Shown here: positions 3,525 to 62,063 of the stretch, piece by piece | How the letters are laid out: every line of letters starts with the position of its first letter | Position numbering within the stretch: the stretch's first letter is position 1 | Assembly (NCBI RefSeq): GCF_024499055.1 | Contig: NZ_CP071249.1 | Coordinates: 1,798,001-1,862,000, forward strand | DNA length: 64,000 nt | Direction of reading: 5' to 3' | DNA from: Turicibacter bilis | GTDB lineage: Bacteria > Bacillota_I > Bacilli_A > MOL361 > Turicibacteraceae | Made by a program: the position numbers and the translations under genes | Notes under the pieces: generated by a model | Database searches by the model: none | The model's input: the letters and a program-made list of their open reading frames with translations, nothing else | Told to the model about the DNA's origin: nothing

Positions 3525-5108
3525 ATGCTTACAGTCTCTAATGTCGGTTTACGATATGGTGATAAAAAGTTATTCGAAGAAGTTAACTTAAAATTCACTC
3601 CTGGAAACTGCTACGGTGTTATCGGAGCAAATGGAGCTGGAAAATCTACTTTTTTAAAAATCTTAGCAGGTGAAATTGAACCTAATACAGGACACGTAAG
3701 TTATCCAAAAGATTTACGTATGTCAGTTTTAAAACAGGATCATTATCAATATGATGAATTACCAGTTTTAGAAACTGTTATCCGCGGAAATGAACGTTTA
3801 TTCCAAATCACTGAAGAGAAAAATGCATTATACATGAAGCCTGACTTCAATGAGGAAGATGGAATTCGTGCAGCTGAACTTGAAGGTGAATTCGCTGAAT
3901 TAAACGGATGGGAAGCTGAATCTGATGCGGCTGCTTTATTACAAGGATTAGGAATCCCAACTGAATTACACGATAAATTAATGAAAGATTTAACAGGGGC
4001 CGAAAAGGTCAAAGTTTTATTAGCTCAAGCTTTATTCGGAAATCCTGATATTTTAGTTCTTGATGAGCCTACCAACCACTTAGATATCCAATCAATCAAC
4101 TGGTTAGAAGAGTTCTTAATCAACTTTGAAGGGACAGTTATCGTTGTATCCCATGACCGTCACTTCTTAAACAAAGTGTGTACACACATCTGTGATGTTG
4201 ACTTTGGAAAAATCAAATTATTCGTTGGTAACTACGACTTCTGGTACGAATCAAGTCAATTATTAAACCGTATGGCTAAAGAAGCTAACAAGAAAAAAGA
4301 AGAACAAATTAAAGAATTACAAGATTTCATCGCTCGTTTCTCGGCTAATGCCTCTAAATCTAAACAAGCGACATCTCGTAAAAAATTATTAGATAAAATC
4401 AAATTAGAAGACTTAGAGCCATCAAGTCGTCGCTATCCATACGTTGGATTCAAACCTGAACGTGAAGTTGGAAATGATATCTTAATGGTTGAAGGGTTAA
4501 CAAAAACAGTGGATGGAGTTAAAGTGTTAGATAACGTTAGCTTCATGGTTCGTAAAGACGATAAAATTGCATTCATCGGAGACGAAATTGCTGTTACAAC
4601 CTTATTCAAAATCTTAAATGGAGAAATGGAAGCAGATAGTGGAACATTCAAGTTCGGTGTTACAATCAAAACTGCTTACTTCCCAAAAGATAACTCAGAA
4701 TTCTTTAACGGTTCTGAATTATCACTAGTTGACTGGTTACGTCAATATTCTGATGACCAAACAGAAAGCTACGTTCGTGGATTCTTAGGACGCATGTTAT
4801 TCTCTGGTGAAGAAGCCCTTAAAAAAGCTTCAGTTTTATCAGGGGGAGAAAAAGTACGTTGTATGTTATCACGCATGATGTTAGCAAATGCCAACGTTTT
4901 AATGCTTGATCAACCAACTAACCACTTAGACCTTGAGTCAATCACAGCACTTAATAACGGATTAAAAGACTTCACAAGCAACGTCTTATTCGCATCACAT
5001 GACCACCAATTCATCCAAACAATTGCTAACCGTATTATCGACATCAAAGAAGACGGTTCAATCGTTGACAAACAAACAACATACGATGAATATTTAGCTT
5101 TAGCATAA
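3525..5108 (+). CDS. ABC-F family translation factor, YkpA/YbiT-like, with degenerate second ATPase site
   Basis: 527-residue soluble ABC-F protein with two nucleotide-binding domains and no membrane segments; the family acts on ribosomes. Domain 1 has Walker A GANGAGKS (34-41), a diverged signature LTGAEK and Walker B LDEPTNHLD with the catalytic Glu. The linker is rich in charged helix (EANKKKEEQIKELQDF) as expected for the ribosome-contacting P-site motif. Domain 2 is unusual: the Walker A position reads GDEIAVTT, without the GK, and Walker B reads LDQPTNHLD, so the catalytic Glu is Gln463; its signature LSGGEK is intact. From memory, the degenerate Walker A is shared by Bacillus YkpA, whereas the Glu-to-Gln change may be special. 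A structured RNA begins at the stop codon. Confidence 0.93.
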   Translation: MLTVSNVGLRYGDKKLFEEVNLKFTPGNCYGVIGANGAGKSTFLKILAGEIEPNTGHVSYPKDLRMSVLKQDHYQYDELPVLETVIRGNERLFQITEEKNALYMKPDFNEEDGIRAAELEGEFAELNGWEAESDAAALLQGLGIPTELHDKLMKDLTGAEKVKVLLAQALFGNPDILVLDEPTNHLDIQSINWLEEFLINFEGTVIVVSHDRHFLNKVCTHICDVDFGKIKLFVGNYDFWYESSQLLNRMAKEANKKKEEQIKELQDFIARFSANASKSKQATSRKKLLDKIKLEDLEPSSRRYPYVGFKPEREVGNDILMVEGLTKTVDGVKVLDNVSFMVRKDDKIAFIGDEIAVTTLFKILNGEMEADSGTFKFGVTIKTAYFPKDNSEFFNGSELSLVDWLRQYSDDQTESYVRGFLGRMLFSGEEALKKASVLSGGEKVRCMLSRMMLANANVLMLDQPTNHLDLESITALNNGLKDFTSNVLFASHDHQFIQTIANRIIDIKEDGSIVDKQTTYDEYLALA

Positions 5109-5284
5109 AAAGCTGAGAGATGCGCTTAACTCGGCGTAAAAGTGGAGCCCCCATTCTAACTAAAAGTTAGGTTTCCACCACTGATGGGGTGATATTGCCT
5201 ATCGTTCGGTAGGAGACTTTATAGAGCAGTTGCGCCTCGAAGCTAGATTCGGGCATGACGCTCATTTCTAAGCTTTTATATACT
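5107..5284 (+). ncRNA. Candidate structured RNA, copy A, directly after the ABC-F gene
   Basis: The first bases overlap the ABC-F stop codon. AAAAGCT (5108-5114) can pair with AGCTTTT (5271-5277), closing a region of about 165 nt. Inside are a hairpin around CTAACTAAAAGTTAG, a second around CCTATCGTTCGGTAGG, and a third, CCTCGAAGCTAGATTCGGG, whose 14-nt core CTCGAAGCTAGATT (5236-5249) followed by GGGCA recurs in the RNA after yebC (11142-11255). A strong terminator follows. I could not match it to a known Rfam class; it is not a TPP riboswitch despite a CTGAGA string. Confidence 0.5.
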
Positions 5285-5318
5285 TAACCACGTACATTTT
5301 TGTACGTGGTTTTTTATT
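5285..5318 (+). terminator. Rho-independent terminator of ABC-F gene/ncRNA A
   Basis: AACCACGTACA pairs with TGTACGTGGTT across a short T loop, followed by a T-run. The stem ACCACGTAC is the same as in the terminator after the second RNA copy. Confidence 0.9.
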
Positions 5319-5450
5319 TTTTCATCATTTTGATGACAGATAGAGTCAAATACTCAAAGTTTATCACTAGTTTTGCGATGCCGTATAAATGCCTACGCTC
5401 CTGATTATAATGAATATACCAAGGATAATCGTTTATAAGGGGGAGCAAAA

Positions 5451-5885
5451 ATGATTACACTAAGACCTATTTCAAAAGATAATTTCTGGGACTGCATAGA
5501 TCTAGCGGTCCATCCCGAACAACAAAGCTTTGTCACTTCAAATGCTATTTCAATTGCCCAGTCTAAGGTACAGCCTGAATGTATCCCACTAGCCATCTAT
5601 CATGAGGATGTGATGGTAGGATTCGTCATGTATTGCCTTGATACTGACGATGATGAGTATTGGATTTATCGCCTGATGATTGATCAACACTATCAAAATC
5701 AAGGATTTGGTACTGAAGCTCTCCACCAAGTGATTGAACTCATCAAAGATGATAAAACTCGTCACCAAATCTTTTTAGGTGTTCATATTGAAAGTGAATC
5801 TGCGATTCATCTCTATAAACAAGTAGGATTCGAATTTAATGGACAAATTTTTGGTCAAGAACATGTTATGGTGCTAAATTATTAA
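5451..5885 (+). CDS. GNAT family N-acetyltransferase, BltD/spermidine acetyltransferase-like
   Basis: 144-residue single-domain GNAT enzyme transferring acetyl from acetyl-CoA to an amine. The acetyl-CoA loop is seen as RLMIDQHYQNQGFGTEAL, with QxxGxG, and the C-terminal part SESAIHLYKQVGFEF is typical of the fold's last helix. The opening MITLRPISKDNFWDCIDLAV and the residues QQSFVTSNAISIAQ resemble Bacillus BltD, a spermine/spermidine acetyltransferase, so a polyamine substrate is a reasonable guess but not shown. The start has RBS AAGGGGGAGC about 6 nt upstream. It appears monocistronic. Confidence 0.85.
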   Translation: MITLRPISKDNFWDCIDLAVHPEQQSFVTSNAISIAQSKVQPECIPLAIYHEDVMVGFVMYCLDTDDDEYWIYRLMIDQHYQNQGFGTEALHQVIELIKDDKTRHQIFLGVHIESESAIHLYKQVGFEFNGQIFGQEHVMVLNY

Positions 5886-11841: not shown

Positions 11842-11919
11842 TTTCTATTATAAACAGATAAGTATTCTACCTCTCAAGTAGAAAATAAAAAAGACTGATA
11901 TGTTTTACCTATCAAGGCA

Positions 11920-12363
11920 GCGGGATAGTGGGGCATTCTATGGGAGGAGCCATTGCGACGTACTATGTTTTAAAATATAATGCTCATAGTGTTTCAAAAC
12001 TTGTTCTTTTAGGCGCTGCTATTCTAGCTTGGATTAAAACTACCGAGTAGAATTATGACTATACGAAGAATTCATTGCTCAACGCTTGAACAACCGACCT
12101 AAATTTATTCAATTAGTTCGTAATCTTTTCTTCTATCAATACACAACCTGTGAAACAGTTGTCTGATTCACTAATTTATGTCTGAAAGCAGCGGGATGGT
12201 CTACTGCTAAATCTTTAATGGCTTTACGCGATGAACAATTATTTAATGACCTATCCAATATCAAAATTCAAAACTCATCTCGCTCACTGAAAGTGGACAC
12301 GCTGCATTTTTTGAAGAAAAAGATAAAGTTTCTAAAGCCATTGTCAAATTTGCAACCTCATAA
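11920..12363 (+). pseudogene. Remnant of an alpha/beta hydrolase
   Basis: Translated fragments in different frames match an alpha/beta hydrolase. Around 11928-12000 the frame reads VGHSMGGAIATYYVLKY, with the GHSMGG nucleophile elbow, and soon stops. At 12188-12280 another fragment reads AAGWSTAKSLMALRDEQLF. After a frame change the final piece, LTESGHAAFFEEKDKVSKA, holds the catalytic-His region and ends at TAA 12361-12363. The start of the protein and the middle (acid residue region) are missing. The string GCAGCGGGAT occurs at both about 11918 and 12188, so a deletion between short repeats may have caused part of the loss. Confidence 0.75.
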
Positions 12364-27772: not shown

Positions 27773-28455
27773 TTGTTCGTTTAAAAAGTTTTCAATTCCT
27801 TCCATAATACCAGTCACCACTTTATCTTGATAGCCTTTAGTTTGAATAAGCTCACGTTCAGTATCATTTGAGAGATAGGCACTTTCAATTAAACAAGCTG
27901 GCATTTTAGATTCTCGAATAACGACTAGATTAGTTACTGCCCTAACATGACGATCTTTAGCTTGTGTATAATTAATCAGCGCTTCTTGAATACAGTTTGC
28001 TAATTGATCATCGTGTGTTTCTTTCCCAGGGTTATAAAAAACTTCAATCCCATGAACACTCGAATCTTTAAAGCTATTTTGATGAATACTAATAAGTAAA
28101 TCACCTTTCGCTTTATTGGCTAATTTCGTGCGATTAATTAAACTAATCGCTGTATCATCGGTTCGGGTCATCACAACTTTATAGCCTTTTGTTTCTAATC
28201 GTTTTTGTAATTTTAGTGCGATTTGAAGATTAATATTTTTTCCTGAACTCCTTGTTTAACACTACCTGGATCCGTTCCACCATGACCCGCATCAATAATA
28301 ATAATTTTTTTAGTGGAACTCAAGAATCGATCCAACCATTGTGTTTTTTGTACCGGAGCAGCAAAACCTATTTGAAACGGAATAAATAAAAGACCTATCA
28401 TAAGAAAAGCGATGATAAATCTAGTAACATGTTTAGATTTTAATTGATTGATCAA
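27758..28455 (-). pseudogene. N-acetylmuramoyl-L-alanine amidase (Amidase_3), frameshifted
   Basis: The first part (TTG start at 28455, RBS AAGGGAAG) gives a signal segment and the first zinc motif IIDAGHGGTDPGS, then runs out of frame after GVQEK. The second part restarts in another frame with MTRTDD, ISIHQNSFKD, HGIEVFYNPG, and the catalytic-Glu region ACLIESAYLSND. Adding one A to the A6 run at 28236-28241 joins the halves as EKNINLQIALKLQ, exactly as in the intact neighbour. So a single-base deletion in a homopolymer splits a 233-residue amidase. Confidence 0.88.
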
Positions 28456-28571: not shown

Positions 28572-29297
28572 TCATTCTGGATTTCGGTCTAATTCATTTA
28601 AGAATTCTTCAATTCCTACTACTATTCCTTTCACTACTTTATTTTGATAATCGTCCGACATAATCAAATCAAGTTCATCATCATTAGAAATAAATGCTGT
28701 CTCGACTAACACAGCGGGCATTATTGTTTCACGTGTCACGACTAAACCATTATCTGAGTGAATTCCGCGATTTTTTGCCCCTGTTTCATTAATTAGTGAC
28801 TCTTGAATCATTTGCGCTAATTGTTGATCGTTTGTTGTTTTGTCACTATTGTAATATACTTCTATTCCATGAACACTTGCATCTTGAGCATAGCAATTTT
28901 GGTGAAGACTAATAAATAAGTCTGCCTCTTTTTCATTGGCGAAATCTGAACGTTCTCTTAGAGAGAGAGAGTTATCATCTTCACGAGTCATTAAAACAGA
29001 ATATCCATTTTCATGTAATACTTCTTGAAGTTTTAAGGCAATTTCTAAATTAATATCTTTTTCTAAAATACCATGACTATCACTTCCCGGATCAATACCC
29101 CCATGACCCGCATCAATAATAATCAATGGCTGAGTAGTGGTAACGGTGCGTTCAGTTTCATAATAAGATTGTGCAATCATAGTTTGCGAGGTTTTTGAAT
29201 AATAAATTGATAATGCAAGACCGCCCATGATTGCTACCATTAAGAATAATGAAATTAAATGAAGCTTCATTAAGCGCCTCTTTCGGTTTCTTCTCAT
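28572..29297 (-). CDS. N-acetylmuramoyl-L-alanine amidase (Amidase_3)
   Basis: 241 residues, intact. A basic N-terminus (MRRNRKRRL) and one membrane segment (about 12-30) export or anchor it; the domain has IIDAGHGGIDPGSD (first zinc His), the Glu in ILEKDINLEIALKL, ISLHQNCYAQ, HGIEVYYN, and the catalytic Glu in PAVLVETAFISND. It cleaves the bond between MurNAc and L-Ala in peptidoglycan. It lies just upstream of a paralogue of the same layout, a tandem duplication. The two ORFs share an upstream element but have separate leaders. Confidence 0.93.
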   Translation of the reverse strand: MRRNRKRRLMKLHLISLFLMVAIMGGLALSIYYSKTSQTMIAQSYYETERTVTTTQPLIIIDAGHGGIDPGSDSHGILEKDINLEIALKLQEVLHENGYSVLMTREDDNSLSLRERSDFANEKEADLFISLHQNCYAQDASVHGIEVYYNSDKTTNDQQLAQMIQESLINETGAKNRGIHSDNGLVVTRETIMPAVLVETAFISNDDELDLIMSDDYQNKVVKGIVVGIEEFLNELDRNPE

Positions 29298-36599: not shown

Positions 36600-37012
36600 G
36601 TATAATAATCTATATAGAAACAGAAATGTATTTCATCATTCTATATCAGTCTTAGTTAATCGATTGGTTTAATACTAAGACAGACTATAGTCCAGCTAAA
36701 AGTTTTCCGATATGAAAAACTTATCTGGACTTATATATATACATAGCAAAATGTATTTCATATACTAACCATCAGGCTTAGTACACAAGTCTTTTTGATA
36801 AAAAGGCCAACTATAGTAGGGCTGGGGCACCTAGCGATTTCTCAAAGAAATCTAATCCCCCACTACTAGGGCATGGGCCACCTGCCGTTTCCAACGGAAA
36901 TGTATCCTCCGCTGGTAGGGCATGGGTTACCTGCCATGCGAAGCATTTATCCTCAACCGGCAAGACTTTAGTTTTTACGATGTTAAAAACTTATCTGGAC
37001 TTATATATATCA
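36600..37012 (+). repeat. Head-module-tail repeat, locus A (three hairpin modules)
   Basis: Two head-plus-tail units and a module block. AAATGTATTTCAT occurs at 36624 and 36749. Tail hairpin 1 runs from GTCCAG (36690) to CTGGAC (36725-36730). A 26-nt identical stretch containing AAAACTTATCTGGACTTATA is at 36715-36740 and again, exactly 270 nt later, at 36985-37010. Between them lie three tandem modules of about 50 nt (36814-36869, 36866-36919, 36916-36962), each with GGGCnnGGGnnACCT, an inner hairpin (e.g. GATTTCTCAAAGAAATC, ATGCGAAGCAT) and then ATCC(T/C)C. Related copies are at 51721-51890 (minus) and 61710-61772. Confidence 0.8.
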
Positions 37013-51720: not shown

Positions 51721-51890
51721 ATTTATATATATATCCTGATAAGTTTTTTATAACGTAAAAACTTTTAGCCTTAGTAGTGAGAGATTAGATTTCTTTCAGA
51801 AATCGCTAGGTGACCCAGTATTAAAAAGGCTTAAGAACTACGCCTAGTTCAAAAATGTGAACTACATTTCGTTATATATAGTGACTGTTT
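51721..51890 (-). repeat. Head-module-tail repeat, locus B (one hairpin module)
   Basis: On the minus strand: a head with ACGAAATGTAGTTC, a segment with AAGCCTTTTTAATA, one module GGGTCACCTAGCGATTTCTG followed by AAAGAAATCTAATC and CACTACTA, then the tail hairpin GCTAAAAGTTTTTACGTTAT and AAAAACTTATC(A)GGA followed by TATATATA. The module is nearly identical to module 1 of locus A and the order of parts is the same, but there is one module instead of three. Confidence 0.78.
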
Positions 51891-61652: not shown

Positions 61653-61709
61653 ACACTCCTTTTTCTAATAGAAACAGAGAAATAGTCTACATTATGAAAA
61701 ATTATCCTC

Positions 61710-61772
61710 AGTTCCTAGGCCTTTTTTAATTCAAGGCTAACTATAGTCCAGATAAAATTTATCTGGACTTAC
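61710..61772 (+). repeat. Head-module-tail repeat, locus C (no module)
   Basis: AGGCC/GGCT-type arm followed by AACTATAGTCCAGATAAAAT and TTATCTGGACTTA: the GTCCAG...CTGGAC tail hairpin of loci A and B without the hairpin modules. It lies between the riboswitch terminator and pbuX, inside the pbuX-xpt leader. Confidence 0.65.
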
Positions 61773-61798
61773 CTACTTATGGCCAAGTAGTTATAAAA

Positions 61799-61832: not shown

Positions 61833-61880
61833 CGAATAGATATATAATAAAAAATTATATATCAAAAAATCATCCAACAA

Positions 61881-61952
61881 CGCCTCGTAGTCCGCACTTT
61901 TACGGTTTGCAGGTAGAAACGCCCAGTCCATATTACCAGGTATATACGAGTC
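61881..61952 (-). promoter_or_regulatory. Purine riboswitch, guanine class
   Basis: On the minus strand: P1 CTCGTA...TACGAG, P2 CCTGGT/ACTGGG with loop AATATGG, junction CGTTTCTACC, P3 loop ACCGTAAAAG, then GGACTACGA. The base that decides specificity (xpt C74 position) is C in GGACTACGA, so it should bind guanine, hypoxanthine or xanthine and not adenine. With the terminator below it acts as an off switch for pbuX-xpt. Confidence 0.95.
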
Positions 61953-62063
61953 TATATTCATTTTTACCACTTTATTATATTATGTTGTTCTTAAAATTAC
62001 AATGAATTTCCATATTTATTAATTTTTTTTGTAAATAGCTATCTCAATTTTCATAGAAAAATG

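Follow-up and report, generated by a model that had tools for sequence, protein, structure and literature searches.

Dispersed repeats of Turicibacter bilis as probable IS630-type MITEs with a separately inserting hairpin module

We found that a repeat present at several loci of the analysed window (the whole stretch of 64,000 nt of Turicibacter bilis DNA) belongs to a family which, in all likelihood, consists of genus-level IS630-type MITEs. As judged from the sequences, these elements would be mobilised in trans by a resident IS630 element, and the hairpin modules within them would represent a separately inserting cargo that expands in tandem. This reading is based on the family itself, the ends of its members, the partner IS, precise insertions of modules in comparison with empty copies, and base-pair covariation; the parts that we infer are the trans-mobilisation, the TA target, and the tandem growth by unequal recombination or re-insertion.

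Distribution of the family

A sequence search with locus A of the window gave matches at about 60 places of the 2.79-Mb chromosome to which it belongs, and a mechanical inventory of the searched stretches gave approximately 55-60 elements of 110-580 bp, which are short, dispersed and devoid of coding capacity. The parts recur in the order head, modules, tail, and the number of modules counted per copy between the conserved head and tail ranges from 0 to 9 (none in about half of the elements and 1 to 9 in the rest; the copy with nine lies at 2525600-2526180). The original prediction of a dispersed, defined and modular element is thus borne out far beyond chance by these matches and by the terminal pattern described below. 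Mobility, which had also been proposed, is very probable from the dispersed copies and from ends that match a resident IS630.

The family was present in all four congeners searched with locus A (one genome per species) and no match to this locus was found among the other 35 relatives searched, which places the family in one of the 32 genera of the relatives sample. Turicibacter was also the only named genus with two matches to the exact 20-nt tail. The occurrence of this tail in one Treponema MAG contig and one Clostridia MAG contig, where there is no module, is probably the result of chance or misbinning. Carriage by phages was considered and rejected: eight IMG/VR contigs share a 17-mer, but none contains a module. 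The open-access papers searched gave no account of such a repeat in Turicibacter.

Elements of the window

The order of head, module and tail was seen at all three loci named by the original prediction, which had assigned three, one and no modules to loci A, B and C, respectively. The counts for B and C stand, and locus A proved to be composed of two tandem elements, with 0 and 3 modules (Table 1). The 26-nt exact direct repeat reported within locus A does exist, and corresponds to the tail of each of these two elements (38 nt, 92% identity, spacing 270 nt). Locus C is larger than the 61710-61772 initially given. A truncated head, absent from the earlier description, constitutes a further locus of the window. 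Copies of A1 (98-99% identity) are found at 2428584 and 2206279 of the own genome, and A2 has a relative with three modules at 2647285 (79%).

Table 1. Coordinates of the elements and modules (window positions) and of the two IS630-family copies (positions in the own genome)
Feature	Position	Strand	Description
Truncated MITE head	~11842..11922	+	TATAAACAGATAAGTATTCTAC type, without tail
MITE A1	36610..36737	+	complete, 0 modules; left TIR, head, right-end palindrome GTCCAG..CTGGAC
MITE A2	36735..37007	+	complete, 3 hairpin modules; in tandem with A1, TATA common to both
Module 1 of A2	36822..36872	+	GGGNCACCT-stem-loop-ATCC..TAGGG; covariance model E=2.6e-7
Module 2 of A2	36873..36922	+	covariance model E=3.3e-14
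Module 3 of A2	36923..36967	+	covariance model E=3.9e-4
MITE B	~51726..51880	-	1 module; gpmA ATG ~150 nt downstream
Module of B	51767..51818	-	covariance model E=4.8e-9
MITE C	~61665..61775	+	0 modules; right palindrome (tail hairpin) shortened
IS630-family element, copy 1	1449043-1450217		1175 bp, inverted ends
IS630-family element, copy 2	1542331-1543505		1175 bp, inverted ends

The predicted non-coding location was confirmed: A and B are situated in intergenic or leader regions, and C precedes a pbuX-type xanthine permease gene, in its leader between a purine riboswitch (61868-61969, minus strand) and the permease start (61652, minus strand). The riboswitch is accompanied by an apparent terminator hairpin, and MITE C is thus inside a riboswitch-controlled leader. 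A different repeat of the window, comprising the paralogous stretches 28237-28302 and 29058-29123 (66 nt with 77% and 57 nt with 75% identity, 821-904 nt apart), looks as if it came from a duplicated gene.

Terminal inverted repeats and the IS630 partner

The elements start with CTATATA(G/C/T)AAACAGAAATGTATTTCAT and end with AAAACTTATCTGGACTTATATA. Reverse-complementing of the right end revealed imperfect TIRs of about 27 nt (CTATATAGAAACAGAAATGTATTTCAT / AAAACTTATCTGGACTTATATA), which contradicts the initial view that a simple TIR is lacking. A degenerate terminal pattern gave 67 forward and 63 reverse matches, compared with 10 and 7 for the reversed control.

The partner was sought by pairing terminal patterns up to 4 kb apart in the own genome, and two nearly identical IS630-family copies were identified. 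Each has two overlapping ORFs, the first with winged-helix domains (HTH_33) and the second with DDE_3 (Pfam, E=3.3e-42); these frames probably encode an IS630-type transposase made by frameshifting. The sister species (G001) has approximately seven copies of 93-94% identity, whose left end (CTATATAGAAACAGAAATGTATTTCAT) is identical to that of the MITE over 27 nt. The right ends have GAAAAACTTATCTG in common and differ in the outer GACT/TTTC stretch. Because the TIRs match a resident IS630-family element with a DDE_3 transposase, we read the repeats as IS630-type MITEs. The original statement that the repeat is not an IS fails in so far as it implies no relation to an IS.

The partner IS630 was absent from G002, G003 and G004, although MITEs or MITE-like ends persist there. 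In G001, the genome richest in IS copies, the MITE copies are 93-98% alike (up to 98% to the query); those of G004, where the IS is absent, are more diverged (72-82%). Most MITE copies are bordered by TATATA-like sequence and both ends of the element are themselves TATATA, so that the TA target duplication of the IS630 family is, for these elements, a prediction. Judging from the ends and the partner, the transposase of the resident 1.17-kb IS630 would move the MITEs in trans into TA-rich intergenic sites, and a MITE would carry its modules along when moved.

Sequence and structure of the hairpin module

The module is a nested hairpin of 42-68 nt, composed of GGGTCACCT, a stem CCTRSC/GSTAGG, an inner hairpin of variable length and sequence, and (T)ATCCTCC. 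The proposed pairs hold in 96.1% of the cells of an alignment of 32 distinct modules, with 56 double-sided changes against 16.3 +/- 3.2 in shuffled data, a signal which is gone after sliding by 1-3 columns. Up to four or five pair types were recorded at each inner pair in a larger set, which was chosen partly on inner pairing, so that its diversity alone is informative. A GGGU/AUCC pseudoknot is at most a candidate: 69.6% of cells can pair, more than at the other offsets tried, but both sides hardly vary.

The covariance model detected at least 142, 53, 14, 45 and 33 modules in five congeners. In 247 genomes of the class, matches outside the genus were weak and confined to one other genus of the family. 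In that genus (G006; L248, L254 and L260), a related hairpin (GGGTCCCCGCCCTTCC..TATCCTCC) occurs in a different repeated element, which in L260 is bounded by GGGTACCTCTAATAA inverted ends. Within the window, a module-like match at 5142-5191 (E=3.7e-5) was not counted as a module, as it lies in a single-copy structured leader. This structured-looking region with a terminator (5108-5320), upstream of a gene at 5451, had no Rfam match at threshold.

Conserved pairing might suggest that the MITE, its modules or both are chiefly regulatory RNA (an attenuator or small RNA) selected at each locus. Such a role would fit the compensatory changes that maintain the pairing, the location of B and C in leaders, and the folding of the 0-module element, which is better than that of shuffles (z about -3.1 and -3.8). 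It would not fit the weak folding of individual modules (z -0.2 to -1.9), the lack of a consistent gene class, or the Rfam search, in which the module had no match at the gathering threshold in the window and three module-rich loci. Moreover, no element positions common to different species were seen, and G001 has no element at the place orthologous to locus A. We therefore regard a primarily regulatory function as very unlikely.

Modules as separate insertion units

Most modules of the own genome are located in MITE arrays between GTCCAG and TAAAAGTTTT, in 0-9 copies. This would be expected of a plain BOX- or BrickBuilt-like MITE with an internal minisatellite, whose module number changes by unequal recombination alone and which involves no separate mobile unit; such MITEs are known, as exemplified by BOX (PMC3049150) and BrickBuilt (PMC4596501). 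An explanation of this kind is nevertheless improbable in the light of two observations: single modules lie with precise junctions within IS3, ISL3, IS66 and Rpn-nuclease genes, as net insertions of 44, 45 or 49 nt relative to empty copies, and in MITEs 912253 and 1387187 the module array lies at a different position with both flanks kept. Because of these precise gene insertions and displaced arrays, we consider the module a separate insertion unit and the MITE one of its carriers.

One IS3 element of T. bilis (G000) has several modules in its two genes, each of which is a precise insertion when compared with seven other copies. In ISL3, six copies from G003 contain a 44-nt module at GCCGA^GGGAGC (site A), the filled copies being 1237 nt and the empty ones 1193 nt long; this difference of 44 nt was seen against five of the six module-free copies. 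At site B of ISL3 (CATT^TTAAATC), a 45-nt module is present in G000, G001 and G004, and two modules in G003. In three Rpn-type genes (PF12784) of G002 and G003, the same two coding sites (A and B), defined by empty paralogues, are each occupied by one or two modules. Smaller inserts of about 20 nt (TACCCGCAAGGGGTACGCCGA; L100, ~4335-4355) and 17 nt (L121) were also noted in IS3 copies in comparison with empty ones.

Modules occupy the same codon position in diverged host genes, whose flanks are 51-87% identical while the modules are 88-100% identical. At IS3 site 4 the module is identical at 45 of 45 positions and the upstream flanks at 73-80%; in two IS66 tnpC genes, 61-65% identical around the site, a 46/46 identical module is found at the same codon. 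With modules more alike than their flanks, the conserved position points either to vertical descent under strong constraint or to site-specific insertion that took place repeatedly.

Constancy of codon position across species would also be expected if the module were intron-like, that is, skipped in translation (as in T4 gene 60 or the byps of Magnusiomyces) or removed from RNA, with the host gene remaining functional. Several features are in line with this. Modules are in sense orientation at 9 of 11 coding sites, six ISL3 copies with an out-of-frame site A module are found at six chromosomal places, and the frame is restored when exactly 44 nt (ISL3 site A) or the complete insert (Rpn sites A and B) is taken out. 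The Rpn genes with modules at two coding sites have a downstream dN/dS of 0.05-0.07. The dN/dS contrast between module-free and module-bearing Rpn genes is compromised by recent cassette exchange. However, the length of insert that restores the frame varies by 1-2 nt between sites, and matched pairs of take-off and landing codons fit some sites but not all, Rpn site B being the clearest failure. The most widely shared site, ISL3 site B, has its 45-nt module in frame and stop-free in G000, G001 and G004, and such in-frame, open sites suggest selection for read-through; IS3 site 4 (48 nt) is likewise in frame, yet has a stop in some copies. Several out-of-frame hosts have suffered further damage (a frameshift and TGA in L190, stops in L153 and L163), and the six empty ISL3 copies could provide for the movement in trans of the filled ones. 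Moreover, the filled Rpn genes hardly differ between sites A and B, and their insertions may therefore be recent. Taken together, these points make a spliced or bypassed module hardly probable.

Under the preferred reading, of MITEs with a separately inserting cargo, the module would insert into MITEs, other insertion sequences and Rpn-type nuclease genes, and would then expand in tandem, up to about nine copies in one MITE and 14 in one array elsewhere. This growth may proceed by unequal recombination or by renewed insertion at the border of the module itself, TAGGGAAT^GGGTC. Two arrays deserve separate mention: 14 tandem modules at the end of an acetyltransferase-like gene of G003 (L168:2067-2863), and eight tandem modules outside any recognised MITE in G000 (2351161-2351630; L183:662-1130), of which seven are identical 58-nt copies.

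Comparison with known systems

The description of the repeat as BOX-like in concept is apt as regards layout, which alone was compared: an end A-(B)n-end C arrangement with n varying from 0 to 9. BOX of Streptococcus pneumoniae and S. suis (boxA-(boxB)n-boxC) is intergenic and has two end modules around variable tandem middle modules; it would be structured if transcribed, and similarity of its TIRs to a resident IS was proposed to underlie its mobilisation (PMC3049150). The Turicibacter elements differ in the 27-nt match of their ends to an IS630-family element and in a middle module that also occurs alone in genes of other mobile elements; no sequence relation to BOX was noted. RUP, an IS630-Spn1-related MITE of S. 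pneumoniae, is similar as a small repeat with IS630-family TIRs that was proposed to move in trans (PMC3049150), but is a simple unit of 107 bp that has no variable modules. In BrickBuilt of Porphyromonas gingivalis, as in our elements, a leader and a tail with inverted ends enclose a repeat that is present in zero to several tandem copies (PMC4596501). BrickBuilt differs in its 23-nt repeat, which has no covarying hairpin, in its IS5-type ends, and in its location, reported to be intergenic in all cases.

REP/RAYT palindromes and IS200/IS605-derived PATEs are comparable as short hairpins that are spread genome-wide, often in tandem. The modules described here do not have the REP layout, and IS200/IS605 (Y1) transposases were rejected as their mobiliser, the ends of the resident Y1 genes of G000, G001 and G003 being devoid of modules. 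Bypass elements (T4 gene 60, Magnusiomyces byps) share with the modules the character of hairpin-bearing inserts of about 45-50 nt in coding genes, but in Turicibacter the frames and flanks follow no single rule, and no sign of bypass was seen.

Significance

As the composite repeat is BOX-like and has an evident IS630 partner in the same genome, the trans-mobilisation of a modular MITE becomes directly testable. Nesting in the genus is three deep, from the module to the MITE or IS and from these to the chromosome. The composite MITE varies on the theme of BOX, RUP and BrickBuilt (PMC3049150, PMC4596501), and novelty in kind, if any, would lie in the hairpin unit that stands by itself. It is conceivable, though we hold it to be doubtful, that the module represents a self-standing mobile or homing class, spread by MITEs and ISs, that recognises defined codons in genes for transposases and nucleases and whose precise insertion adds a net 44-49 nt in the common types. 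If so, the way in which it integrates (RNA-templated or by a single-strand hairpin) would set it apart from all the small-element classes considered. The presence of a minimal hairpin at the same codon of diverged transposase genes constitutes a natural experiment on the spread of a small DNA or RNA element and on its tolerance by genes.
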